From: Ignavibacteria bacterium
Lineage (GTDB): Bacteria > Bacteroidota > Ignavibacteria > Tepidaquicellales > OLB5
NCBI GenBank assembly: GCA_019912545.1
Contig: JAIOIK010000042.1
Span: forward strand, 1 to 64,000
DNA length: 64,000 nt
Direction: 5' to 3'
Shown: positions 23,323-56,572 of the stretch, in pieces
Numbering within the stretch: position 1 is the first letter of the stretch
How the letters are laid out: every line of letters starts with the position of its first letter
Notes under the pieces: model-generated
Told to the model about the DNA's origin: nothing
What the model saw: only the letters and a program-made list of their open reading frames with translations
The model's database searches: none
Position numbers and translations under genes: made by a program

Positions 23323-23426
23323 AACACACCCTCTACGAGTCTTCGACTCGAAGAGTCGTAGACCGTCTTCACCTACGGTGAATCCACCCCTGCCTGCTGC
23401 AGGCAGTCCTCTCAAGAGGGGAATTA
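23323..23426. repeat. Composite dispersed intergenic repeat carrying two palindromic insertions
   Basis: Alignable to the simpler copy at 53151-53202 (reverse strand), which lacks the 32-nt block 23332-23363 and the 19-nt block 23391-23409. Confidence 0.8.
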
Positions 23427-53150: not shown

Positions 53151-53202
53151 TATTCCCATCTAGAGAGGGGTGGATTCACTAACGGTGAAGACGGGGTGTG
53201 TT
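53151..53202 (-). repeat. Uninterrupted copy of the dispersed intergenic repeat (empty site)
   Basis: Reverse complement AACACACCC|CGTCTTCACCGTTAGTGAATCCACCCC|TCTCTAGATGGGAATA aligns to 23323-23426 without the two inserts. Confidence 0.8.
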
Positions 53203-55229: not shown

Positions 55230-55275
55230 ATCCCCCCTGCCTGCAGCAGGCAGGCCTTTGTTTTTAAAGGGGGGA
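55230..55275. terminator. Terminator-like hairpin ATCCCCCC|TTTGTTTTTAAAGGGGGGAT interrupted by a 19-nt palindrome (55238-55256)
   Basis: Removing TGCCTGCAGCAGGCAGGCC restores an 11-bp perfect stem between convergent genes. Confidence 0.75.
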
Positions 55276-56280: not shown

Positions 56281-56339
56281 TTTTCTAACTTACTATTAAT
56301 TTTTTGTTAAAATACTTTTTTGAACCATTAAGATAATTG

Positions 56340-56482
56340 CCACGACCTTTAGAGGCTGTCTCAAAAGTACCATTTTTCGGTGGCACAGACATTCTTGTCT
56401 GTGATCGTTAAACATAAATGAGGTTTTCGACAGACAGGAATGTCTGTCCCACTGGTTTTGAGTCAGCCTCTTTAGGTCGTGG
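56340..56482. repeat. MITE-like 143-bp element with about 27-bp terminal inverted repeats
   Basis: CCACGACCTTTAGAGGCTGTCTCAAAA / reverse complement CCACGACCTAAAGAGGCTGACTCAAAA (24/27); internal inverted copies of a (G/C)ACAGACATTCYTGTCTGT palindrome. Confidence 0.8.
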
Positions 56483-56555
56483 AAGAATGTGGATTTTTAT
56501 TTCGGCTTTAGCCGCTAATAAAGTATACATATATGATTGGATTCTTCGCCCGACC

Positions 56556-56572
56556 TGCCTGCAGCAGGCAGG
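56556..56572. repeat. Third copy of the TGCCTGCAGCAGGCAGG palindrome
   Basis: Identical to the first 17 nt of 55238-55256; flanked by ATTCTTCG.../...CAGAATGAC inverted sequence. Confidence 0.8.

Follow-up and report, generated by a model that had tools for sequence, protein, structure and literature searches.

Short palindromes nested in intergenic hairpin repeats of an Ignavibacteria genome as probable mobile micro-elements

The closest analogue of the elements considered here is, judged by description, the group of SDR elements of Nostoc, reportedly described by Elhai et al. (2008, Genome Res. 18:1484), which are said to be hairpins of ~20–30 nt that insert precisely into other repeats, nest within themselves and have been amplified in a restricted clade. 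SDR5 inserts into the palindrome HIP1, its entry point lying between nucleotides 3 and 4 (PMC4390886). The two palindromic units that we analysed, PAL32 (32 nt) and PAL19 (19 nt), share with the Nostoc elements the small hairpin unit, the precise insertion into repeats, the self-nesting and the clade-limited amplification, as far as the descriptions go, but they occur in a different phylum, and PAL19 is a perfect palindrome found beside CpG in many unrelated hairpins and not within one octamer. As in REP and REPIN systems with RAYT (TnpA_REP, a Y1 HUH transposase), intergenic palindromes of 20–40 nt are present in high copy number in a genome that also holds Y1 genes (PMC2817692, PMC3116915, PMC3733652), whereas PAL19 and PAL32, unlike RAYT-linked REPs, lack an unpaired tag of GT[AG]G or CGTC and flank none of the Y1 genes examined. 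A few REP families sit inserted inside other palindromes (PMC3733652). Members of IS200/IS605 insert without larger target duplications (PMC2817692), and PAL19 resembles elements of this type in inserting without target duplication.

Short palindromes within palindromes and composite nested repeats are also found in Volvox carteri organelle DNA (PMC2670323), likened here by description, which differs in being organellar and in the TAAA/TTTA loops of its palindromes. The Rickettsia palindromic elements (RPE) are likewise short palindromes spread in one lineage; they are inserted in frame in genes (PMC3733652), whereas no PAL19 site is convincingly genic, and longer reading frames do not consistently result when PAL19 is excised. 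A MITE of a DDE transposase would have terminal inverted repeats and a fixed-length target duplication, and PAL19 shows no duplication. No prior description of such elements in Ignavibacteria was found in the literature searched.

Filled and empty copies of the host repeat

The window, i.e. the whole analysed stretch of 64,000 nt, lies on contig C173 of a 3.66 Mb genome. At 23323–23425 on the forward strand it carries a dispersed repeat located directly 3′ of purA, which we take from its sequence to encode adenylosuccinate synthetase, with a small convergent gene on the other side of the repeat. This copy reads, in order, AACACACCC / TCTACGAGTCTTCGACTCGAAGAGTCGTAGAC / CGTCTTCACCTACGGTGAATCCACC / CCTGCCTGCTGCAGGCAGT / CCTCTCAAGAGGGGAATT, a host frame of the form AACACACCC-CGTC-hairpin-CCACC-CCTC-hairpin-GGGGAATT that is interrupted twice: by PAL32 (TCTACGAGTCTTCGACTCGAAGAGTCGTAGAC, 23332–23363, +), inserted at AACACACCC^CGTC (site 1; ^ marks the junction), and by PAL19 (CCTGCCTGCTGCAGGCAGT, 23389–23407, +), inserted at CCACC^CCTCTCAAG (site 2). 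The frame itself contributes a central hairpin, TTCACC-TAC-GGTGAA (23368–23382, +), with CGTC before it, TCCA after it and a loop that is occupied by other palindromes in other copies, and a distal hairpin, CCTC-TCAA-GAGG (23408–23419, +), recognised from sequence and folding. The sequence-only reading had set this copy against a reverse-strand copy near 53 kb that lacks both blocks, and had concluded that two palindromic mini-elements landed in a third repeat. Both sequences could be confirmed, the empty copy lying at 53152–53202 (−) after folD with the same frame; both blocks are present, the second being better cut in a rotated form, as CCACC^CCTGCCTGCTGCAGGCAGT^CCTCTC. The 53 kb copy is indeed empty, but it is a paralogue, and the orthologous evidence comes from a congener, as given below. 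Folded as single-stranded DNA, the filled copy gives z = −5.1 and the empty copy z = −0.8, which is not significant.

Among the parsed copies of the AACACACCC...CCACCCC repeat in this genome, site 1 is empty in 24 and holds PAL32 in seven, one of them with an additional C; in L016 it holds PAL32 with a PAL32-like palindrome nested inside, and in L019 an unrelated palindrome, CTCCGAAGGAGTCCTTCGGA. At site 2, 14 of the simply parsed copies are empty and five contain PAL19, with longer composite forms in others. Host repeats with the core CGTCTTCACC occur 11 times in the genome (control 0). The central hairpins of the hosts vary, with TTCACC, TTTGCC, ATTGCC, CGCC and other stems, several of which are accompanied by PAL32, and the repeats are mosaic, many central hairpins being paired with differing left and right parts. 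The hairpins of the CGTC-TTCACC/TTTGCC/ATTGCC type followed by (T/G)CCA resemble CGTC-tagged REPs, described by a CGTC tag, A/T first stem pairs and a CCA tail, but their stems are shorter and vary. The AACACACCC...CCACCCC repeat is probably an older dispersed hairpin repeat and one host among many. As a separate observation, the loops of the central hairpins (e.g. at 23368–23382) mostly have the sequence TTCG, TACG or TGCG with a closing C-G pair; if this strand is read as RNA these are UNCG tetraloops, which hints at selection for an RNA hairpin.

Exact units and their target sites

Genome-wide, PAL32 was found at 15 places (≤3 mismatches) and PAL19 at 65 (≤1 mismatch), with 0 matches of the reversed-pattern control in either case, by which chance is excluded. 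The consensus of PAL19 is the palindrome CCTGCCTGCWGCAGGCAGG, from which the copy at 23389–23407 deviates in its last base only. Two more copies lie in the window, one at 55236–55254 (+) in the arm of a CCCC...GGGG hairpin just past a gene end, for which a similar empty sequence exists in L010, and one at 56554–56572 (+) at TTCGCCCGA^TAAACCGGTC. Longer forms of PAL19, PAL30 and PAL48, have the common termini CCTGCCT...AGGCAGG. Nesting extends to at least three levels: PAL48-type units lie within host repeats (e.g. L023, L129) and PAL19 lies inside a PAL48-type palindrome (L220), which together with the PAL32-like unit within PAL32 (L016) provides the self-nesting in our own set.

The precision of the units was assessed by excising each palindrome and seeking the joined 22-mer as an empty sequence (≤2 mismatches) in ~379 kb of DNA from the same genome. 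Excision at exact length yielded a 22-mer found empty for 20 of 50 PAL19 copies (a lower bound, as empty partners were sought only in these ~379 kb), 8 of 15 PAL30–48 copies and 3 of 8 PAL32 copies, while excision one base longer or shorter did so for none of the PAL19 or PAL30–48 copies and for one PAL32 copy; some copies that occupy one and the same host site may go back to a single insertion followed by duplication of the host. Since empty matches of PAL19 occur only at offset 0, its units are exact, and PAL19 inserts precisely and without target duplication. In the case of PAL32, a 32-nt unit is indistinguishable from one of 31 nt that duplicates a single C, so that the check for target duplications proposed by the sequence-only reading returns none for PAL19 and at most 1 nt for PAL32. 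The empty partners come from many unrelated repeats, and the hosts restored by excision include CCCGCCTTCGCG^GGAATGAC, CTTTCGCT^TCGCTCAGGATGAC, GACCTGCC^CGTACAGGCGGG and CACAGA^CATTCTTGTCTGTG. In the congener G009, PAL19 occupies the same kind of site as here, CCCGCCTTCGCG^GGAAT, and PAL32 has a third host, CCTCACCCC^AACCCCTCTCC. With unrelated hosts that have exact empty counterparts, a different palindrome at the same site (L019) and an orthologous repeat without either block, the case for insertion, as originally proposed, is strong.

The flanks of PAL19 are variable except for a preference for CpG, which touches one side in 15 of 32 non-redundant junctions compared to 7% expected locally (p = 8.5e-10). 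The CACC^CC host sites, which account for 16 of the 50 PAL19 copies and have no CpG, were excluded from this count. In other species, CpG stands beside 7 of 9 PAL19 copies (p = 2.6e-7; scored by eye, on copies independent of those from which the rule was discovered). Empty sites also have a stronger propensity to fold than local controls (mean z −1.53 vs −0.29, p = 1.2e-7), which holds for the non-host subset as well. Almost every PAL32 copy inspected has one and the same orientation relative to a C-rich target strand. We therefore consider it likely that PAL32 and PAL19, together with PAL30 and PAL48, are non-autonomous mobile micro-elements which enter hairpin-forming intergenic repeats as exact hairpin units. 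Movement was not observed, and mobility is argued here from the comparison of sequences; if the units are as mobile as they appear, PAL19 and PAL32 rank with the smallest candidates for mobile DNA in bacteria. With units of exactly 19 and 32 nt, an amplification specific to this species, sites in both the filled and the empty state, a target preference replicated in other species and many candidate enzymes, the questions of how REP-like hairpins multiply and how small mobile DNA can be are directly testable here.

Candidate enzymes and mode of spread

We propose a model in which each element, one DNA hairpin, would be copied and inserted as an exact unit without target duplication, preferably into hairpin-forming intergenic repeats and, in the case of PAL19, with a tendency toward CpG neighbours. 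The mobile intermediate would be a single-stranded hairpin, and a Y1 (HUH, RAYT-like) transposase would act on PAL19 and PAL32 in trans. Single-hairpin units, the lack of target duplication and the strand bias match the behaviour of the Y1 enzymes of IS200/IS605 and RAYT (PMC2817692, PMC6006769). Spread as REP/SDR-like single-stranded hairpins is most likely, and the enzyme is probably a Y1 transposase acting in trans, which we infer because Y1 enzymes insert without target duplication and because the genome holds 11 Y1 genes, many with their own flanking palindromes. The search for a RAYT suggested by the sequence-only reading returned candidates, 11 matches above the curated cut-off, most of them with flanking palindromes of their own, but none flanked by PAL19 or PAL32. 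Nor is any of ~40 loci in congeners flanked by either unit; with incomplete assemblies, such a gene could have been missed. One Y1 gene, on contig C39 of G007, lies ~2 kb from PAL32, and the hairpins adjoining it are of GCTCC type. At the foot of the hairpin, neither PAL19 nor PAL32 shows an unpaired tag, be it GT[AG]G or CGTC; the GTAG of PAL32 lies within the stem. Given no Y1 locus with either unit and no tag, the assignment to an enzyme can only be inferred.

PAL19 and PAL30 are found inside palindromes that flank Y1 genes in the genus (e.g. L213, L202), and PAL32 occurs in GTTGTTGGT...ACCAACAAC repeats; in G009, a closely related repeat flanks a Y1 gene (L263). Tentatively, PAL19 and PAL32 might be hyperparasites of REP-like palindromes, which would depend in trans on one or more Y1 HUH transposases belonging to other palindrome families and would land within the hairpins of those same families, in the case of PAL19 next to CpG, giving rise to nested intergenic hairpins. 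If this holds, they would rank with the smallest known units of mobile DNA.

Spread without any transposase, either by template switching in replication or by reverse transcription of an RNA intermediate, is an unlikely alternative, although the targets are hairpins, no Y1 gene flanked by either unit turned up and the perfect symmetry of PAL19 masks any strand polarity. An RNA-mediated or template-switch route has reportedly been proposed for the Nostoc SDR elements. However, exact 19-nt units in unrelated sequence, together with the CpG adjacency, speak for an enzyme that is selective as to ends and targets, and the constant orientation of PAL32 relative to the C-rich target strand fits strand-specific cleavage, as expected for the Y1-mediated spread that we favour.

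Independently of PAL19 and PAL32, Y1 genes with a YxxxQxxHH signature (L068–L071 on contigs C122, C145, C39 and C25 of this genome; L255–L294 in congeners) are mostly bracketed by short hairpins; often two precede and two follow the gene, spaced by ~50 nt, of CC-GTA-GG type upstream and CC-TAC-GG type downstream. This signature corresponds to subclass 1.2 of TnpA_Y1, which is said to generally lack terminal secondary structures (PMC6006769), and the hairpin-flanked loci look like an undescribed REPtron-like organisation. Many Y1 genes with a YxxxNP signature (L190–L196 and congener loci) have gene-specific palindromes on either side, which belong to several families.

History in the genus and origin of the empty sites

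Comparison with 12 congeners and 8 genomes of other genera showed at most six copies of PAL19 in each congener, and six copies of PAL32 in G009, four in G007 and at most one in each other congener; the 8 genomes from other genera yielded no match to either unit. With 65 and 15 copies here, compared to at most six of either per congener and none in other genera, these numbers point to a recent and species-specific amplification. The closest of the 12 congeners is G006 (purA 92% identical), and its repeat after purA reads TTACACACCCCGTTTTCACC...GGTGAATTCACCCCTCTCAAGTGAGGAATTATCTGCTGAATTCTCATT, without PAL32 and without PAL19, and another palindromic stretch occupies the central loop; this state was read directly, the machine alignment being poor over that stretch. 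The purA site is the only clean orthologous comparison of filled and empty states: in six further congeners readable 3′ of purA the repeat is absent, at five other aligned host-repeat loci of this genome (G000) and G006 the intergenic divergence is too high for such a reading, and for the loci at 55236 and 56554 a usable orthologue was not found.

The mosaic structure of the host repeats would be in line with an exchange of modules, in which palindromes are shuffled among repeat copies by homologous recombination or gene conversion. The hosts of PAL19 and PAL32 have no common flanking homology, however, so that conversion cannot explain their placement there; within a single host family it may account for some copies, and it is improbable as a general explanation.

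Hairpins promote replication slippage, and slippage deletion usually requires direct repeats at the flanks. A precise loss, in which a host repeat that originally contained the two palindromes gave rise to empty copies through deletion by slippage over the hairpins, would draw on this promotion, and the polarity at the purA locus is unreadable from G006 alone, because the whole repeat is missing in more distant congeners. We nevertheless regard such a loss as very improbable. Most PAL19 sites have no flanking direct repeats, two unrelated palindromes are found at the same site, unrelated hosts carry the same palindrome and have exact empty counterparts, and PAL19 is abundant in this species only. 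The sequence-only reading had itself named deletion as the alternative, to be indicated by most copies containing both blocks with graded divergence; instead, empty copies outnumber filled ones, and PAL32 copies differ by 3.6% in mean pairwise comparison, in contrast to 22% for their hosts (host strings assembled by hand), which shows the palindromes to be younger than the hosts, or at least to have spread later. Insertion of the palindromes into pre-existing hairpin repeats therefore remains the preferred reading. An artefact of assembly is barely conceivable, since the metagenome-assembled genome, although in 206 contigs and with several repeats at contig ends, is 99.7% complete with 0.5% contamination, and independently sampled genomes show the same palindromes in like sites.

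Some minor observations concern single loci. In two paralogous stretches at contig ends (L042 and L043, on C26 and C49), PAL32 lies near a PAL19-like palindrome in an apparently broken coding region. At the end of contig C164 (L218), PAL19 lies within the 5′ half of a tRNA-Leu-like sequence, for which ARAGORN calls no tRNA with or without the insert. In the window, positions 56339–56483 hold an inverted-repeat element of ~144 bp (CCACGACCTTTAGAGGCTGTCTCAAAA...), which has ~20 copies in the genome and also adjoins the Y1 gene on contig C145.
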